Shown piece by piece: positions 32,234-41,960 of a DNA stretch of 64,000 bases. Numbering within the stretch: position 1 is the stretch's first letter; each line of letters begins with the position of its first letter. The notes beneath the pieces were generated by a model. That model was given only the letters and a program-made list of their open reading frames with translations, had not been told where the DNA came from and did no database searches. The translations under genes and the position numbers were made by a program. This DNA is from Deltaproteobacteria bacterium (lineage in GTDB: Bacteria > Myxococcota_C > UBA6777), in the NCBI GenBank assembly GCA_002731275.1, contig PCBK01000029.1, positions 1 to 64,000 of the forward strand, given 5' to 3'.

Positions 32234-32601
32234 CGCCGTCCAACTCTCCACCCCCACCTACACATCAAAACACATGTGACTCGGTGTGTTTTTCCCGCCC
32301 CACATCCCCACTCCCCTCGCACAAGAGTTTACAACATTTTCCCATGTTGGTGTCTCACCTCTTGATGAATCACGAGTTTTTGTTCCGTCTCTGATTTCGT
32401 ACACTTGGCCTTGATTGGAGAGGCCCAATAGCGGTCGACATCGGTGAGGTGGGTTGCTTTTCTTACCTCATCTACCTTATCTTTATAGGACATTCAACTC
32501 AGCGTCATGACGAGCTTTGCTTTCATCTTTGTGACATACACCAACGGTAGCTCGAATCCTTTTCACAAGAAGCGTTGACGATCAGAAAGGAAGCCAGTCA
32601 C
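32234..32601. other. Intergenic region between hpf and prkA
   Basis: These 368 bases hold the hpf terminator candidate at the left end and must hold the promoter of the prkA-yeaH-spoVR operon. Pyrimidine-rich tracts dominate 32330-32500. No clear sigma-70 or sigma-54 element stands out, and no small ORF with a ribosome site was found. Confidence 0.5.
32267..32293 (+). terminator. Rho-independent terminator candidate after hpf
   Basis: AAAACACA, ten bases, TGTGTTTT forms a perfect eight-base stem whose 3' arm runs into five T. The A/T symmetry would let it work on either strand. It lies 33 bases past the hpf stop. Confidence 0.55.
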
Positions 32602-34695
32602 ATGAGCAATGTTTCTGAAGAACATACAGCCCCCTCCGGCTCCATGCTAGAAAGCATTCGTAAACACCACAACGTCGAAGAATATCGTGAACTTCATTGG
32701 GAAGGCACCTTCGAGGAATACCTCGAAATTGTCAAAAAGAATCCCTCTGTTACACGCAACGCCTTCCAGCGCGTCTACGACATGATCATGGAAGTCGGTA
32801 CCGAAGAGTACATCGACAACAAGAAAAAGATCATCCGCTACAACTTCTTCAAAGCCGAACAATTCGGTGGAGCCGATGCCATTTTTGGTCTCGACATCCC
32901 TTTGATGAAGCTCGTCAACTTCTTCAAGTCCGCGGCTCTCGGCTATGGAACAGAGAAGAGGGTTCTCCTCCTCCACGGCCCTGTCGGTTCGGCCAAAAGT
33001 AGTATCGCTCGCTCCCTCAAGCGCGGGATCGAAGCTTACTCCAAAACACCTCAAGGTGCTTTGTACACCTACTACTGGACGATCCCACACGATGAAGATG
33101 AGCTCAAGGAGCTCTTCCCCAACGGTGTCGAGATCATGCCTTGTCCCATGAATGATGAGCCTCTTAACCTCATCCCCATGGACATCCGCAAGCAATTCTT
33201 GCTCGATGTTGGGATCGATCTCGATGCACATCGTATCAACCTACCCAACGATCTCAACCCCGCATGTCGCCACGTCTTCAACTCGTTGATGAACAAGTAC
33301 GATGGCGATCTCGTCAAAGTGCTCTCCCATGTCACCGTCAAACGCTTGATCCTCAGCGAACAAGACCGCGTCGGGATCGGGACATTCCAGCCAAAAGATG
33401 AGAAAAACCAGGACTCCACAGAGCTCACAGGTGACATCAACTACCGTAAAATCGCGATCTACGGCTCGGACTCCGATCCTCGCGCCTTCAACTTTGACGG
33501 TGAGTTTAACGTCGCCAACCGTGGTATTATCGAATTTATCGAGGTCCTCAAGCTCGACGTCGCCTTCTTGTACGACCTCCTCGGTGCGTCACAGGAACAC
33601 AAGATCAAACCCAAGAAGTTTGCACAAACAGACATCGACGAGGTGATCATCGGTCACACCAACGAAGCTGAATACAAAAAACTCCTCAACAACGAGTTTA
33701 TGGAAGCACTTCGTGACCGTACTGTGAAGATCGACATCCCCTATATCACCCGTCTTCGCGAAGAAGTCCGCATCTACGAGCGCGACTTCGGTCAAAACAA
33801 GATCCGCGGCAAACACGTCGCACCCCATACTCTCGAAATGGCTGCGATGTGGGCGATCTTGACTCGTCTCGAAGAGCCCAAAAAAGCCAACCTCACGTTG
33901 CTGCAAAAGCTCAAGCTCTATAACGGAAAGAGTCTCCCCGGATACACCGAGGACAACATCAAAGAGTTGCGCAAAGAAGCACCGAGAGAGGGGATGCAAG
34001 GGATCTCACCTCGTTACATCCAGGACAAGATCTCCAACGCTCTTGTCTCCGAGAAGAGCACCACGAGTATCAACCCCTTTATCGTGCTCAGCGAGCTTGG
34101 TAGCGGACTCCGCCATCACTCTCTCGTGACCAACGACGAAGAGCGCAAGCGCTATATCGAGATGCTCGATGTCGTCAAACAGGAGTACGAAGACATCGTG
34201 AAAAACGAAGTCCAGCGTGCGATCTCTGCAGATGAAGAGATGATCGCGAAGATGTGCGCTAACTACATCGACAACGTCAAAGCATATACACAACGTGAGA
34301 AGGTCAAAAACCCCTTCACCGGACAATACGAAGAGCCCGACGAGCGACTCATGCGCTCCATCGAGGAGAAGATCGATATCGCCTCCTCGCGCAAAGATGA
34401 TTTCCGTCGTGAGATCATGAACTATATCGGTGCTCTCGCTGTCGAAGGGAAGACTTTTGACTACCGAACAAACGAGCGCCTTCACAAGGCCCTTGAGCTC
34501 AAACTCTTCGAAGACCAAAAAGACTCCATCCGTCTCACCTCCCTCGTCTCCAACGTCATTGACAAGGACACCCAGGGCAAAATCGATGTCGTGAAAGAAC
34601 GATTGATCCGTGATTATGGATACAACGATGAGTCTGCGACAGATGTCTTGAACTTCGTCGCTTCGATCTTCGCGCGTGGTGACGCAAAAGAGTAA
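32602..34695 (+). CDS. prkA: PrkA-type serine protein kinase / AAA ATPase
   Basis: This is a 697-residue protein. The ATG at 32602 follows AGAAAGGAAG; an upstream TTG (32575) is unlikely. The N-terminal AAA part contains [19 protein letters not shown] (P-loop, about residue 124) and the PrkA C-terminal domain follows (about 400-690). Family members (E. coli YeaG, Bacillus PrkA) act in stationary-phase, nitrogen or sporulation responses; kinase and protease activities have been reported. It is the first gene of the conserved prkA-yeaH-spoVR operon, which is complete here. Confidence 0.95.
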
Positions 34696-34764: not shown

Positions 34765-34801
34765 CTCGGTGTTCTCATCCTCGAATGGAAAGGTCTATTG
34801 G

Positions 34802-35911
34802 ATGAAGATCAAGCAGGATCACAGTCGGTTTCGACAGATCGTTCGTGGGCAAATCAAAGATAACCTGCGCAAATACATCTCCCAAGGCGAACTGATCGGG
34901 CGCAAAGGGAAAGAGGCGATCTCCATTCCCTTGCCCCAGATCGATATCCCTCGCTTTCGCTATGGCTCGAAAAACTCCGGTGGACTAGGGCAAGGTGAGG
35001 GCGACGTCGGTGACGCCGTCCAACAAGGCGATCCCCAAGAGGGCGAGGGCGAGCCCGGAAAAGCTGGAGAAAATCCAGGTGAGCATGTCCTCGAAGTGGA
35101 TGTCCAACTCGATGAACTCGCCGAGCTTCTTGGAGAAGAGCTACAGCTCCCCAATATCCAACCCCGTGGCGAAAAACAGGTCGCTGTCGAGAAGGATAAA
35201 TACTCTGGTATTCGACGTGTTGGTCCTGAGTCCCTTCGTCACTTCAAACGCACATACCGCGAAGCGCTCAAACGTCAAGTCGCTTCCGGAGTGTACAAAT
35301 CCAAAAATCCTCTCATCGTCCCTATCCGCGAAGACAAGCGCTTTCGCTCTTGGAAGACCACCTCTATCCCACAATCCAACGCCGTCATCATCTACATGAT
35401 GGACGTCTCTGGTTCGATGGGTGACGAGCAAAAAGAGATCGTACGGATCGAGTCTTTCTGGATCGATACTTGGCTGCGCCATCAGTACAACGGGATCGAG
35501 AGTCGGTACATCATCCACGATGCCACTGCTCGTGAGGTCGATGCTCACACCTTCTTCCACACAAGGGAGTCTGGTGGGACGATGATCTCTTCGGCGTATC
35601 GACTTTGTCAGAGGATTATTGACGAAAACTATCCCAAAGAACAATGGAACATCTATCCCTTCCACTTCTCCGATGGGGATAACTGGTCACAAGATGACAC
35701 CTCCCGTTGTATGGACCTCTTGCGCAATCATTTGCTGCCAGTCAGCAACATGTTTTGCTATGGACAGGTCGAGAGTCCTTATGGTTCTGGACAATTCCTC
35801 AAAGATCTCGAACAAGTATTTCCCGAAGATGATCGTTTGATCACTTCGGAAATTCGCGACAAAGATGCGATTGTGCAGTCTATCAAGGAGTTCTTGGGCA
35901 AAGGGATGTAG
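34802..35911 (+). CDS. yeaH: YeaH/YhbH family (DUF444) von Willebrand A-like protein
   Basis: This is a 369-residue protein. The ATG at 34802 has GGAAAGG upstream; an earlier in-frame TTG gives an unlikely extension. An acidic Gly-rich segment (about 60-100) follows a basic N-terminus. The C-terminal half has a vWA-like fold with [11 protein letters not shown] (about residue 200), a MIDAS metal motif, and GGTMISSAY. Members always accompany prkA and spoVR; the molecular role is unresolved. It is slightly shorter than E. coli YeaH (427). Confidence 0.92.
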
Positions 35912-35955
35912 GGCCGACTTGTGAGCGGACAAACCAACTGAAAGGGATTTTGGAC

Positions 35956-38667
35956 ATGAAGTTTGGGCGACAATTGCCTGAGGATTTGCGTGAGCTCCAG
36001 ATCGAGATGGAAGGCTATGCGCGTGAGTATGGTTTGGACTTCTTCCCCACCATCTTTGAGGTCCTCGACTACGATCAAATCAATCAGGTCGCTGCCTACG
36101 GTGGATTCCCTGTGCGCTATCCTCACTGGCGCTTTGGGATGGACTATGAGCGGCTCTCAAAAGGTTACACATACGGGTTGCAGAAGATCTACGAGATGGT
36201 CATCAACAACAACCCATGTTACGCCTATCTGCTCGAATCCAACTCGTACATCGACCAAAAGATCGTCATGGCGCACGTCTTTGGTCACTGTGATTTCTTC
36301 AAAAACAACGAGTATTTCAAGCACACCAACAGGCGTATGATCGACGAGATGGCCAACCACGCCATCCGTATTCGCCGGTACATCGACCGCTATGGGATCG
36401 ATCGGGTGGAGGAGTTTATCGACACCTGTCTCTCTCTCGATAACCTGATCGACTACTATTCTCCGTACTTTGAAGACATGGATCTTCAAACCGAAGACGA
36501 AGATGAAAATGATGATGTCCCCCGACTCCTCAATGAGAGAGAGTACATGGAGGATTACATCAACCCTGCCTCTTACATCGAGGCCGAACGCGAAAAACTC
36601 GAAGCCGAGCGCGCCAAAAAGAAACGCTTCCCACGCAAACCCGTCAAAGACGTCATGTGGTTCTTGATGAAATACGCTCCACTGACTCACTGGCAACGGG
36701 ACGTCATCTCCATTATCCGAGAAGAATCATACTACTTCGCGCCACAGGGCCAAACCAAGATACTGAATGAGGGGTGGGCTTGTCTTGCTCCTGACTCATG
36801 GGCGTTTACGGGCGATGGTATGCTTTCTATGGCAGAAGTCGTGTGGGAGAAAACTTCGGCCATATCGGACGGAGAATCCATTCGTGGGATCTATGGTCGG
36901 AATATTATTCCTGATCATCCGATGGTAACGTTAAAAACAAGGCGTGGTCTTGAGATTTCAGGCTCAAATAATCATAGGGTGCTTTTACCTGATGGTGAAA
37001 CCTGGAAAAGGCTCGATGAGTTCTCTGTTGGAGATGCTGTTGGGATTTCTGGAGGAGCTGGTCTTTGGGCTCAGGAGAAGGTCAAGATCGACTGGAAACC
37101 TGCGCAGAGAGTGAGCTTGCATGATATTGCTGAGAAAGTCGGTGTCTCTGTGTGGACAGTCATCCGGCATCGAAAAGGGAAAACGACACAAAGCCAAGCT
37201 GCAATTGCAGCTGCGCTTGAAGTGTATGAAACGCCCGAAAATCAGGAACTCTCGCTCTCTTTGTCAAAGCGCCAACCTATCGAAGTTCCAGAGGAAGTTG
37301 ATGTCTCTTTAGGAGCGTTTTTAGGTTACCTTATCGGTGATGGCCACATCAGTCGTGTAAAAGGACACCTTGGATTGACCTCTGGAGATGAAGAGCAGGC
37401 TCTTACCTTTCTCCAGTTAGCACAGGAGCTTTTTGGAGTCACTGCGAGTTTTTTCTTGGACGAAAATCGCTGGAGAGTATTGGTTCATTCCAAAAACTTG
37501 ATGGACTTTCTCCAGGAAACTTTCAATTTGACAGATGGTCCTTCTGCTGGTGTTAAAAAGATTCCAAAGCAAATCCTGCGCTCACCGGAACCTGTCATTC
37601 GTGCGTTTTTGCGGGCTTACTTTGACAGTGACGGATACGCAGGTAAACAAGGCGTTATTTTAAGTACGAAGAGCGATGAACTCTCCGAACAAACGCAGTT
37701 GTTACTGCTCAATTATGGGATCCTATCTCGTCGTCGGAAGCTACAAGATGGTTGTTGGCATGTTCATGTTGCTGGTGCTTCTGCGCGAGTTTTCTCCGAG
37801 AAAATCGGTTTTGGACTGGTTCGAAAGCAGGAAGCATTGGATGCCTATGTCAATGATCGTAAGTGGTTCAAGAAAGAGTCATGGACAGATGAGATTGTCT
37901 CTATCGAACACGGTCAGGGTGATGTTTATGACATCTCCGTTGAAGAGACCCATCGTTATGCAGCGCAGGGGTTCATCAATCACAACTCCTATTGGCATGC
38001 CAAGATCATGACCGAGAAAGCCGCCAAGGACAGCGAGATCATCGACTTTGCAGATGCACACGCTGGGGTCGTCGCGACTTCGCGTACACAACTCAACCCA
38101 TACAAACTTGGGATCGAGCTGCTGCGTGATATCGAAGAACGCTGGAACAAGGGACAATTCGGGAAAGAGTACGATGAGTGTGATAGCCTCTACGATCGTA
38201 ACAACTGGGATTTGAAGCTGGGCAAAGGCCAGGAGAAGATCTTCCAAGTCCGACGTATCTACAATGATGTCACCTTCATCGACGAGTTCCTCACCCCCGA
38301 ATTTTGTATGCGCCACAACATGTTTGGCTTTGATTTCAACAGAAGCTCCGGACAATACGAGATCTCTACACGAGATTTCAAAGAGATGAAGGAGAAACTG
38401 TTGTTCCAATTGACCAACTTTGGACAACCCTTTATCCGCGTGGTCGATGCCAACTTTGAAAACCGTTCGGAGCTCTTGCTCGGCCACAGACACGAAGGCG
38501 TCGATCTTCGTGTGGATTACGCGCGGGCCGTTTTGGAGAACCTCTTCAAAGTGTGGAAGCGACCCACCAATATCTCGACACGTATCGAAGGAAAAGGACG
38601 TTTGTTCTCGTATGACGGGAAGGAACACTCCATCCGTGAGTTTGATCACGTCGATATCCGTGATTGA
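35956..38667 (+). CDS. spoVR: SpoVR family protein interrupted by an intein
   Basis: This is a 903-residue precursor. The ATG at 35956 lies nine bases after AGGG; a TTG two codons earlier is an alternative. The exteins (1-275 and 678-903) total 501 residues, the usual SpoVR length (E. coli YcgB about 510). The conserved NEGWA-SYWH motif is split exactly between Ala and Ser by a 402-residue intein, and both flanks continue the SpoVR alignment. SpoVR acts with PrkA and YeaH; in Bacillus it is linked to spore cortex formation, elsewhere to stress. Function here depends on splicing. It is the third gene of the operon. Confidence 0.95.
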   Translation: MKFGRQLPEDLRELQIEMEGYAREYGLDFFPTIFEVLDYDQINQVAAYGGFPVRYPHWRFGMDYERLSKGYTYGLQKIYEMVINNNPCYAYLLESNSYIDQKIVMAHVFGHCDFFKNNEYFKHTNRRMIDEMANHAIRIRRYIDRYGIDRVEEFIDTCLSLDNLIDYYSPYFEDMDLQTEDEDENDDVPRLLNEREYMEDYINPASYIEAEREKLEAERAKKKRFPRKPVKDVMWFLMKYAPLTHWQRDVISIIREESYYFAPQGQTKILNEGWACLAPDSWAFTGDGMLSMAEVVWEKTSAISDGESIRGIYGRNIIPDHPMVTLKTRRGLEISGSNNHRVLLPDGETWKRLDEFSVGDAVGISGGAGLWAQEKVKIDWKPAQRVSLHDIAEKVGVSVWTVIRHRKGKTTQSQAAIAAALEVYETPENQELSLSLSKRQPIEVPEEVDVSLGAFLGYLIGDGHISRVKGHLGLTSGDEEQALTFLQLAQELFGVTASFFLDENRWRVLVHSKNLMDFLQETFNLTDGPSAGVKKIPKQILRSPEPVIRAFLRAYFDSDGYAGKQGVILSTKSDELSEQTQLLLLNYGILSRRRKLQDGCWHVHVAGASARVFSEKIGFGLVRKQEALDAYVNDRKWFKKESWTDEIVSIEHGQGDVYDISVEETHRYAAQGFINHNSYWHAKIMTEKAAKDSEIIDFADAHAGVVATSRTQLNPYKLGIELLRDIEERWNKGQFGKEYDECDSLYDRNNWDLKLGKGQEKIFQVRRIYNDVTFIDEFLTPEFCMRHNMFGFDFNRSSGQYEISTRDFKEMKEKLLFQLTNFGQPFIRVVDANFENRSELLLGHRHEGVDLRVDYARAVLENLFKVWKRPTNISTRIEGKGRLFSYDGKEHSIREFDHVDIRD
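36781..37986 (+). mobile_element. Intein with LAGLIDADG homing endonuclease in spoVR
   Basis: The element is 402 codons. It begins with Cys1 (CLAPDSWAFTGDG, block A). Block B has SNNHRVLL with the conserved His. The splicing end reads VYDISVEETHRYAAQGFINHN (block F, then block G ending His-Asn), followed by Ser+1. Two LAGLIDADG (DOD) motifs keep their Asp: FLGYLIGDGHI (near 37315-37350) and FLRAYFDSDGYA (near 37605-37640). An extra LacI-like helix-turn-helix lies between the N-terminal splicing block and the endonuclease. All splicing residues look intact, so it is probably active and possibly still mobile. Confidence 0.95.
37111..37230 (+). other. LacI-type helix-turn-helix embedded in the intein
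   Basis: Intein residues about 111-150 read VSLHDIAEKVGVSVWTVIRH followed by a basic turn and an Ala-rich helix. This is the LacI headpiece pattern (x-DIAxxxGVSxxTVxR). It sits ahead of the first LAGLIDADG motif, where inteins sometimes carry extra DNA-recognition regions. It probably adds DNA-binding specificity to the homing endonuclease. Confidence 0.75.
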
Positions 38668-38826: not shown

Positions 38827-40230
38827 GTGAGCGAAAAAGAAAATCAGTTTGGAGCACCGACACCTCGTCCTTCTGGTTCGCCTGTCACACAGGCGATGCA
38901 AATGGAGGATTTTTCGGATGTTCTCAACTTCAATAAGTATAAGCTGAAAGTCATCGAAGGTCCTGACGCAGGCAAAGAGATCGTCGCAGAACGTCGTGTC
39001 GTCACACTTGGTAGTGCGTACGATGGCGATCTCGTGCTTGATGATGTCACTGTCTCTCGTCGACACTGTGAAATTGTGTTCGATGGTGGCGGCTATCTCG
39101 TCCGTGACCTCGGCAGTAAGAACGGCACCTATATCGAATCTTTTCGTATCAAAGAGGGCTTCTTGCGTCCTGGATGCCGACTCGGATTGGGTAGCACCAC
39201 AATTAGCTTTGAGCTCGTTGGTGAACAGATCAACGTCTACCTGAGTCGTGGTGACCGTTTTGGTGATCTTTACGGCCAGAGCCTTGAGATGAAAGAGGTC
39301 TTCGGGATCCTGCAGCGTGTCGCTCCGACAGACGCTACAGTCCTCGTGACCGGTGAGAGTGGGACGGGGAAAGAGCTCGCCGCACGCGCCATCCACAACC
39401 ACAGCAAACGCGCCGATAAACCCTTTGTCGTCTTCGACTGTTCGGCTGTCCCTCGCGAACTGATCGAGAGCGAGTTGTTTGGACACGTCAAAGGAGCCTT
39501 TACAGGCGCCGTCCAGAGCCGTCCTGGTGCGTTCTTGTCCGCAAATGGCGGGACGTTGTTCCTCGATGAGCTCGGAGAGTTGCCCCTCGATCTCCAACCC
39601 AAACTGCTACGTGTGCTCGAAAATCGCGAGGTCAAACAACTCGGTAGCAACGAGACAAGACAGATCGATGTGCGGATCGTCGCGGCGACCAACAGACCCC
39701 TTGAGCAGATGGTCAGCGAAGGTGAATTCCGACAAGATCTGTACTATCGTCTCGCTGTGATCCAGGTCCCTCTTCCACCTTTGCGTCATCGACGTGATGA
39801 TGTGGCTTTCCTGGTGGATCTGTTCCTGCGCGATCTCGGTCGCAGTGGACCGGGATTTGTGGTCTCTCACGATACGATGGAGAAGCTCAAACAATACGAA
39901 TGGCCCGGTAACGTCCGTGAACTTCGCAACTACGTTGAACGGGCGACGATCCTTTCAACAGGTCGGCAGATCGACGCAAACCTCGTCCCACAAGGTGCAG
40001 GAGGACTTGGTGGACAGCAGGGTGGCAATGGTATCGAGACCTCTATCGATCTGAACGTGCCTTTCAAGTTGGCCAAGGAACAACTCATCGATCGCTTTGA
40101 GCAAGAGTACCTGATGGCGGCACTTGAAGCCCATGATTGGAACATCACACAAGCCTCACAACAAATCGGTATCCATCGAAAATCCCTCGAATATCTGATG
40201 AAAAAACACAGCTTGCGACGCCCTTCGTAA
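38827..40230 (+). CDS. FHA-domain sigma-54 transcriptional activator
   Basis: This is a 467-residue protein starting at a GTG. An FHA domain (about 40-125: [23 protein letters not shown].., LGSKNGTYI) recognises a phosphothreonine. The AAA+ domain (about 145-370) has Walker A GESGTGKE, the sigma-54 contact GAFTGA (in [11 protein letters not shown]) and Walker [13 protein letters not shown] Fis-type helix-turn-helix closes the protein ([18 protein letters not shown]). FHA activators are common in Myxococcota and answer to Ser/Thr kinases. It lies 159 bases after spoVR and may regulate that operon. Confidence 0.93.
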
Positions 40231-40265
40231 GCATATCGAGACACGTTACGTAAGGAGTGACGGCC

Positions 40266-41960
40266 ATTAAAGAGCTTTTTGGAAATGTCATCGGGCTCAA
40301 GCCCAGCCAGAAAAAACGTCTTTCCACATTGTATCGACGAAAGCTGGCTCGCCAGGCTATGGCACCTCAACACTTTCTCCGCGCCCTCACAGAACTCTCC
40401 CACGAGATCGAACGCCAAGTCGGTGTTCTTGTCGACCGCAAGGGAGAAGTGACCTCTGTGATCGTCGGGGATGCACACCAAATCGTCATCCCCGCACAAG
40501 GTCGGATCCGCGAAGCCCACGGTCGTCTTCGTGGCCTTCGTCTTATTCACACCCACCTGCAAAATGAACCGCTCTCAAAGGACGATCTCAACGACCTCTC
40601 ACACCTGCGCTTCGACTTTATGATGGCCGTTGGTGTGACGGAAGATGGATTCCCCGGACACATTTACTACGCCTATTTGTTGCCCGAAAATGCGGCGGGA
40701 GATCTGTGGAAAACGGAAGGGCCTCATACTGCAGCCGAGCTAGAGAAAGACGACTTTCAGTTTTGGATCCGAACTCTTGAGGATGAGTTTGCGCGTGCTG
40801 CGACGCTCGGGAGCGAAGTCGCTGACGGAAACAGAGCGATTCTTGTCGGAGTCTATCCTTCCAAGAAGTTCGATATAGACGCTCGAATGGGAGAGCTTGA
40901 GGAGTTGGCCAACTCTGCAGGGTTGTACGTGATGGGTCGGGTGATCCAACGACGTCCCAAGCCCGATCATCGCTTTCTTTTGGGGCAGGGGAAACTCGAA
41001 GACCTTATCTTGCGTTCGATGCAACAAGGCGTCGACATTTTGGTGTTCGATTCAGATCTCTCTCCTGGACAGTCGAGGAATATCGCAGACGTGACAGAGC
41101 TGAAGATCCTGGATCGCACACAGCTGATCCTCGATATTTTTGCCCAACGCGCACACTCTCGCGACGGTAAGCTGCAGGTCGAGTTGGCGCAACTAAAATA
41201 CATGCTGCCGCGGCTCAATCGTATGAACAAGGCGATGAGTCGATTGACAGGTGGGATCGGTGGCCGTGGTCCTGGTGAGACCAAGTTGGAGATCAACAGA
41301 CGTCGCGCACGTGAGCGGATCAGTCGCTTGGAGAAACAACTCAAACAGGTTAAGACCAGACGACAGGTCCGACGTAGCAAACGCAAAAATCACAACGTCC
41401 CGATTATCTCCGCCGTGGGGTACACCAACGCCGGTAAGTCGACCCTCGTGAATACCCTCACACATAGCGAAGTGGTCGCCGAAAACAGAATGTTTTCGAC
41501 CCTCGATCCTGTCAGTCGACGGCTGCGCTTTCCCGAGGAACGTGAGGTCATTTTGACGGACACTGTGGGGTTTATTCGGGATCTTCCGCCAGAGCTAAAG
41601 GCTGCCTTTGAGGCGACTCTTGAAGAACTTGAAGATGCCAACCTTTTGCTTCAAGTTGTCGATATATCGGATTCTTCATTTACAAAGCAGATCGAAGCCG
41701 TGGACGGAATCTTGCGTGAACTTGAGCTACATCAACTCCCACGGCTGCTGATCTTGAATAAGATAGATAAGATTCCAAAAGAAGAAGCAGAGAATCTCTG
41801 TCGGACACACGACGCGATCGGGGTGTCTGCCCTGGATCGAGAGACACTGCGACCCCTTTTGGAGGTGATAGAGATGCGTCTATGGAACCATAATCGCTCG
41901 GTGGATCGGGGATACGAAACACAAGTTGAGGACGCGGACACCGACACTGTTATTGAGTGA
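40266..41960 (+). CDS. hflX: GTPase HflX (long form), probable AUU start
   Basis: The protein has about 564 residues. A good ribosome site AAGGAG (40252-40257) lies eight bases before an in-frame ATT at 40266; the only upstream candidate (GTG 40257) overlaps the site itself. Starting at ATT gives MKELFGNVIGLKPSQ, which matches my recollection of other long HflX N-termini. The HflX N-terminal and helical domains (GGIGGRGPGETKLE) precede the G domain: GYTNAGKST (about 385), DTVGFIRDLP, NKID. HflX splits stalled or hibernating 70S ribosomes. A GTG start cannot be excluded. Confidence 0.9.
   Translation: MKELFGNVIGLKPSQKKRLSTLYRRKLARQAMAPQHFLRALTELSHEIERQVGVLVDRKGEVTSVIVGDAHQIVIPAQGRIREAHGRLRGLRLIHTHLQNEPLSKDDLNDLSHLRFDFMMAVGVTEDGFPGHIYYAYLLPENAAGDLWKTEGPHTAAELEKDDFQFWIRTLEDEFARAATLGSEVADGNRAILVGVYPSKKFDIDARMGELEELANSAGLYVMGRVIQRRPKPDHRFLLGQGKLEDLILRSMQQGVDILVFDSDLSPGQSRNIADVTELKILDRTQLILDIFAQRAHSRDGKLQVELAQLKYMLPRLNRMNKAMSRLTGGIGGRGPGETKLEINRRRARERISRLEKQLKQVKTRRQVRRSKRKNHNVPIISAVGYTNAGKSTLVNTLTHSEVVAENRMFSTLDPVSRRLRFPEEREVILTDTVGFIRDLPPELKAAFEATLEELEDANLLLQVVDISDSSFTKQIEAVDGILRELELHQLPRLLILNKIDKIPKEEAENLCRTHDAIGVSALDRETLRPLLEVIEMRLWNHNRSVDRGYETQVEDADTDTVIE

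Follow-up and report, generated by a model that had tools for sequence, protein, structure and literature searches.

The spoVR locus of the window

Throughout, the window denotes the whole stretch of DNA analysed (64,000 nucleotides). On its forward strand the genes prkA, DUF444 and spoVR follow one another in this order, the last of them carrying an in-frame insert with the features of an intein:

32575-34695, forward strand: prkA, uninterrupted in the window (Pfam AAA_PrkA and PrkA)
34769-35911, forward strand: yeaH/yhbH, DUF444 (Pfam DUF444 1.8e-91, NCBIfam)
35956-38667, forward strand: spoVR with in-frame intein (Pfam SpoVR 1.8e-134 in two stretches; SpoVR_C)
35956-36780, forward strand: N-extein, C-terminal end QTKILNEGWA (Pfam SpoVR 5-269 of 407)
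36781-37986, forward strand: intein, 402 aa, Cys1 to Asn402 (junctions, Pfam, NCBIfam, alignment, model)
36781-37068, forward strand: N-terminal splicing region, residues ~1-96, with Cys1 and block-B His65 (alignment, invariant columns, model strands; end approximate)
37114-37227, forward strand: LacI-like helix-turn-helix, residues ~112-149 (weak Pfam LacI match, model helices)
37303-37848, forward strand: two-repeat LAGLIDADG endonuclease, residues ~175-356 (Pfam LAGLIDADG_3; acidic D187, D282/D284)
37885-37986, forward strand: C-terminal splicing region with D384, H391 and H401-N402 (NCBIfam intein_Cterm, alignment)
37987-38664, forward strand: C-extein, N-terminal start SYWHAK with Ser+1 (Pfam)

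The spoVR frame is open from a TTG at 35950 to 38667 (+), with an ATG at 35956, and the intein makes up codons 278-679 of the frame 35950-38667. Calculated from the ATG, the precursor has 903 amino acids and the predicted spliced SpoVR 501, which bears out the product length given in an earlier note on this DNA. The gene is present as a single copy in the window genome. The insert falls exactly between NEGWA and SYWH, in frame and with conserved host flanks, and the Pfam SpoVR (PF04293) stretches on either side of it join at profile position 269/268. The earlier note had placed a 402-residue intein in this motif, correctly to the base.

Splicing residues of the window intein comprise Cys1, block-B His65 (in GSNNHRV), His391, His401-Asn402 and Ser+1; C1, H65, D384, H391, H401 and N402 are invariant among 37 aligned SpoVR inteins. 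Both LAGLIDADG repeats keep their acidic residues (D187; D282/D284). The residues listed in the earlier note for both activities are thus all in place, those for splicing being conserved in relatives as well. Profile matches were obtained with Pfam Intein_splicing (2.5e-12) and LAGLIDADG_3 (1.5e-20) as well as with NCBIfam intein_Cterm; NCBIfam holds exception models for several intein-bearing hosts, and the comparison showed none for SpoVR. The AlphaFold2 model of the intein (pLDDT 95.6) was closest to the crystal structures of the TliVMA intein with its endonuclease (Foldseek E 1e-23). Between splicing block and endonuclease, the model places helices at residues 113-120, 124-131 and 139-149, in the region of the LacI match, which is weak in the window intein (0.015) and reaches E<=0.5 in 21 of the 37 members (best 1.2e-5). 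Besides Cys1, the only cysteine of the intein is C325, in the endonuclease, and none occurs at the C-terminal end of the N-extein. By its flanks, residues and fold the insert is a class 1 (Cys1) intein, with splicing predicted.

Genes for an FHA-domain sigma-54 activator and for hflX lie 3' of spoVR (38827-41960 of the window), an order kept in two genomes of the same family, G002 and G004. The FHA-domain protein may be a regulator of the prkA-yeaH-spoVR module. The window genome holds at least five other inteins, two in DnaB and one each in a PhoH-like ATPase, GyrB and QueC (contigs C175, C143, C48 and C83).

Distribution of inteins at the NEGWA/SYWH site

We scanned about 85,000 species genomes with the degenerate pattern K-x-x-NEGWA-C, which matched at least 112 stretches. 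Among the 112 stretches listed, 45 were SpoVR inteins inserted at precisely this position, and 39 of these were complete. Their hosts belong to at least seven phyla (Myxococcota, Chloroflexota, Planctomycetota, Armatimonadota, Bipolaricaulota, Acidobacteria and Halobacteria), and in IMG/VR at least 12 viral contigs have a SpoVR intein at the same position. Cys1, His-Asn and Ser+1 were present in 49 of 49 complete copies studied. Sizes range from 264 to 420 aa, the short forms coming from the window family and, as a separate case, from Chloroflexota.

Occupancy was counted in evenly drawn samples, leaving out the genome at the centre of each. Among SpoVR-bearing genomes, the SpoVR match was broken at the intein site in 7/96 Halobacteria, 2/48 Myxococcota and 2/22 Chloroflexota; 46 of the 95 Myxococcota sampled lacked SpoVR altogether. 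Other matches to the junction pattern (Legionella, Halieaceae, Sneathiella and many viral contigs) turned out to be uninterrupted SpoVR reading NEGWAC[FYL]WH and were rejected as inteins. The natural cysteine that follows NEGWA in the uninterrupted SpoVR of Legionella and others (L040, L046, L054, L068, L111) occupies the +1 position of the intein site. Phage and plasmid records contained no close relatives of the window intein; the matches there were to endonucleases in other genes, and distant.

The NEGWA/SYWH site of SpoVR is, from these sequence comparisons, a recurrent intein target across many lineages. The earlier note did not count SpoVR among the usual intein hosts; this holds for the open-access literature, where we found no mention of an intein in SpoVR or PrkA, but not for the site, since the search of SpoVR sequences for insertions there, which the note had proposed, returned many, though apparently unreported.

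Full, mini and empty alleles within one family

The window phylum is represented in the collection by five genomes, all of one family: the window genome and G001-G004. The window genome and G003 carry full inteins of 402 aa each, which are 65% identical (exteins 77%). Mini-inteins of 264 aa are found in G002 and G004; they are devoid of the helix-turn-helix and of the first LAGLIDADG repeat, and their second repeat has lost its acidic residues, while all splicing residues are kept. The site is empty in G001, where NEGWASYWH reads through. This intein-free SpoVR is the closest (85%) to that of the intein-bearing G003, and the 60 bases flanking the empty site are identical to G003 at 53 positions and to the window at 51. 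An uninterrupted allele is present in the same family and genus as the occupied ones.

Between G002 and G004, dN/dS was 0.15-0.19 for the mini-intein, 0.17-0.25 for the N-extein and 0.02-0.03 for the C-extein; the comparison of the window with G003 was saturated. These ratios indicate that the mini-inteins are under purifying selection. Decay of the endonuclease with splicing kept, as seen in G002 and G004, is what the homing cycle predicts.

Relationships between lineages

Compared with haloarchaeal copies, the window intein is 49-53% identical, whereas the exteins are only 33-40% identical. In the intein tree the Halobacteria are grouped with the window family and Myxococcota (support 96/92). 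This group is missing from the extein tree, and the extein data reject it with a p-AU of 4e-9, a test for which the group was named after the trees had been seen. The reverse test is weaker: the intein data alone do not reject a grouping of Halobacteria with Bipolaricaulota (p-AU 0.094). Taken as sequence data, the trees make it probable, short of proof, that the SpoVR intein moved between domains.

Further intein sites and viral modules

At least two more intein sites are present in SpoVR. One lies in the VIN.NPC motif (VIN|C..HN|T.PC) of viral L150 and L164 and their relatives L165, L180, L188 and L200, the other in the GH.DFF motif (GH|C..HN|[CS]DFF) of L083 from Fimbriiglobus and of viral L162. 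Several of these proteins hold two inteins each. Inteins at the two further sites match the window intein only distantly and belong to different sub-families. A pattern for the second site gave no matches in 294 Planctomycetota genomes and, among viral contigs, only L162.

The partner protein PrkA is also a host. In G002 (L022) and G004 (L216) it contains a Ser1-type intein at VI[IL]GH|S..HN|TNE, the endonuclease of which looks degenerate, and the N-terminal junction recurs in Planctomycetota and Chloroflexota genomes (L213/G043, L214/G639, L215/G655). Where complete, PrkA inteins have 360-396 aa; both junctions could be read in three of the five. Relatedness between the PrkA and SpoVR inteins was not detectable. 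Five viral contigs that matched the PrkA-junction pattern were discarded, none being readable as PrkA with an intein.

Viral contigs L150 (4061-11489) and L192 (3013-8929) carry prkA, DUF444 and spoVR consecutively, with ThyX, DnaB-like, DnaC-like and sigma-factor genes as neighbours; their SpoVR is interrupted by one or two inteins. Genes for SpoVR and PrkA have been described in a jumbo phage, inteins not being mentioned (PMC8504454), and viral spoVR has been recorded in a marine virome (PMC8940887). Virus-borne copies of the module could serve as partners for endonuclease spread, and hence make a dispensable gene a target.

The split motif in the SpoVR protein

For SpoVR, a stress protein, a sequence search found no known structure. 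An intein-free SpoVR (L072) was modelled at pLDDT 85.5. Foldseek against the PDB gave no significant match for this model (best E 0.23). On re-alignment with VIA-align the top rows were of the metallopeptidase type (Z 11.5, 9.5 and 9.5, for a predicted model whose Foldseek matches were not significant), and the later rows were nearly all zincin metallopeptidases (M9, M2, M61, M48 and others). Invariant SpoVR residues include, in L072 numbering, H106, H110, N267-A271, H275 and H296. In the model SpoVR looks like a zincin-like fold; its HxxxH motif is missing the Glu of HExxH, so that SpoVR is possibly not a peptidase.

E268, of NEGWA, and H275 share one predicted helix, and the intein inserts between them. 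In terms of the model, the insert thus looks as if it splits a presumed metal-site helix and sets these two residues 402 residues apart. Since presumed metal-site residues are separated in this way, precursor SpoVR is probably inactive until spliced.

Origin and role of the insert

The reading we hold with high confidence is that of a canonical cis-splicing, homing LAGLIDADG intein in single-copy spoVR that decays to splicing-only forms. The 903-aa precursor would probably excise the intein by standard Cys1/Asn402/Ser+1 chemistry, giving the 501-aa SpoVR. Once released, the intein probably acts as a site-specific endonuclease through which the element is copied into spoVR alleles that lack an insert, with the LacI-like helix-turn-helix presumably assisting it. 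In lineages where the endonuclease has decayed, splicing competence alone would be retained because SpoVR is still needed. Sporadic occurrence, the empty site, endonuclease decay and the discordance of the trees all fit this homing cycle.

That the insert might be confined to the window genome, as the product of a single recent invasion or of faulty assembly, was worth asking of a draft genome with 5.5% contamination; the presence of the intein at this site in three sister genomes, in at least 45 genome loci and in at least 12 viral contigs rules it out. It is very unlikely that the intein fails to splice, or cleaves instead, leaving SpoVR dead or working as two fragments. SpoVR is dispensable in many lineages, as its absence from nearly half of the sampled Myxococcota illustrates, but no splicing residue varies among 37 divergent copies, mini-inteins included, the frame is open, and the G002/G004 exteins are under purifying selection (dN/dS 0.02-0.25).

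The earlier note had suggested that splicing could act as a post-translational switch for the prkA-yeaH-spoVR module. In such a scheme splicing would be slow or conditional, and SpoVR would become active only when a particular stress or redox state arises. Since invariant residues of what is presumed to be the active site lie on either side of the insert, splicing would control activity by construction; in G002 and G004, PrkA and SpoVR, encoded in one operon, each contain an endonuclease-less intein, the mini-inteins persist under purifying selection, and conditional splicing is known for other inteins, such as that of mycobacterial DnaB (PMC6195587, PMC7360933). Against this, occupancy is sporadic, with the uninterrupted allele in the same family and genus, the window endonuclease is apparently intact, as expected of a selfish element, and a redox trap formed by a cysteine pair would have no obvious partner, the last N-extein residues being free of cysteine and the intein offering C325 only. 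Purifying selection on the mini-intein is, moreover, expected from splicing alone. We found no positive evidence for the suggestion, all observations being expected from a homing intein, and we regard recruitment as a switch as improbable. A broader version, in which the whole module is under intein control and the SpoVR and PrkA inteins are timed or stress-responsive activators spread by module-carrying viruses, appears slightly more improbable again.

Discussion

As a homing element the SpoVR intein has familiar relatives. TliVMA and PhoVMA inteins, PI-PkoII, PI-PfuI and PI-SceI combine, as it does, a splicing domain with a two-repeat LAGLIDADG endonuclease inserted into it, TliVMA and PhoVMA being its best matches in both sequence and fold. 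It differs from these inteins in host gene and site, at about 20% identity, and in the LacI-like helix-turn-helix between splicing block and endonuclease. The gyrB, rir1-b and cdc21-a alleles (PMC4071816) likewise occupy one site each in full, mini and empty states across Bacteria and Halobacteria, but their hosts are replication or nucleotide genes, whereas SpoVR, a stress protein, can be dispensed with. SpoVR is not one of the 13 intein host genes recorded in a survey of 118 halobacterial genomes (PMC4071816).

Like the conditionally splicing inteins of mycobacterial DnaB and P. horikoshii RadA, that of SpoVR sits in a conserved motif of its host enzyme; unlike these, it is not known to splice conditionally, and no cysteine pair or other sensor is apparent in it. 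The PrkA-YeaH-SpoVR modules of E. coli and B. subtilis have the same gene order as the window but are uninterrupted, whereas SpoVR is split in the window and PrkA is split too in G002 and G004. The SpoVR intein belongs to a well-known kind of element; its site is widely occupied but seems not to have been reported.

The usual picture of inteins is one of parasites living in essential genes for replication or ATP handling. In the present case the repeated target is a dispensable stress module, also carried by viruses, with at least three intein sites in SpoVR and one in its partner PrkA over bacteria, haloarchaea and viruses. Viruses that carry the whole module may serve as vehicles for the inteins. 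With its empty, full and endonuclease-less alleles, the window family offers a small natural set on which the homing cycle could be tested, and for SpoVR itself the repeated targeting points to conserved residues that matter in the protein, likely those of a metal site.
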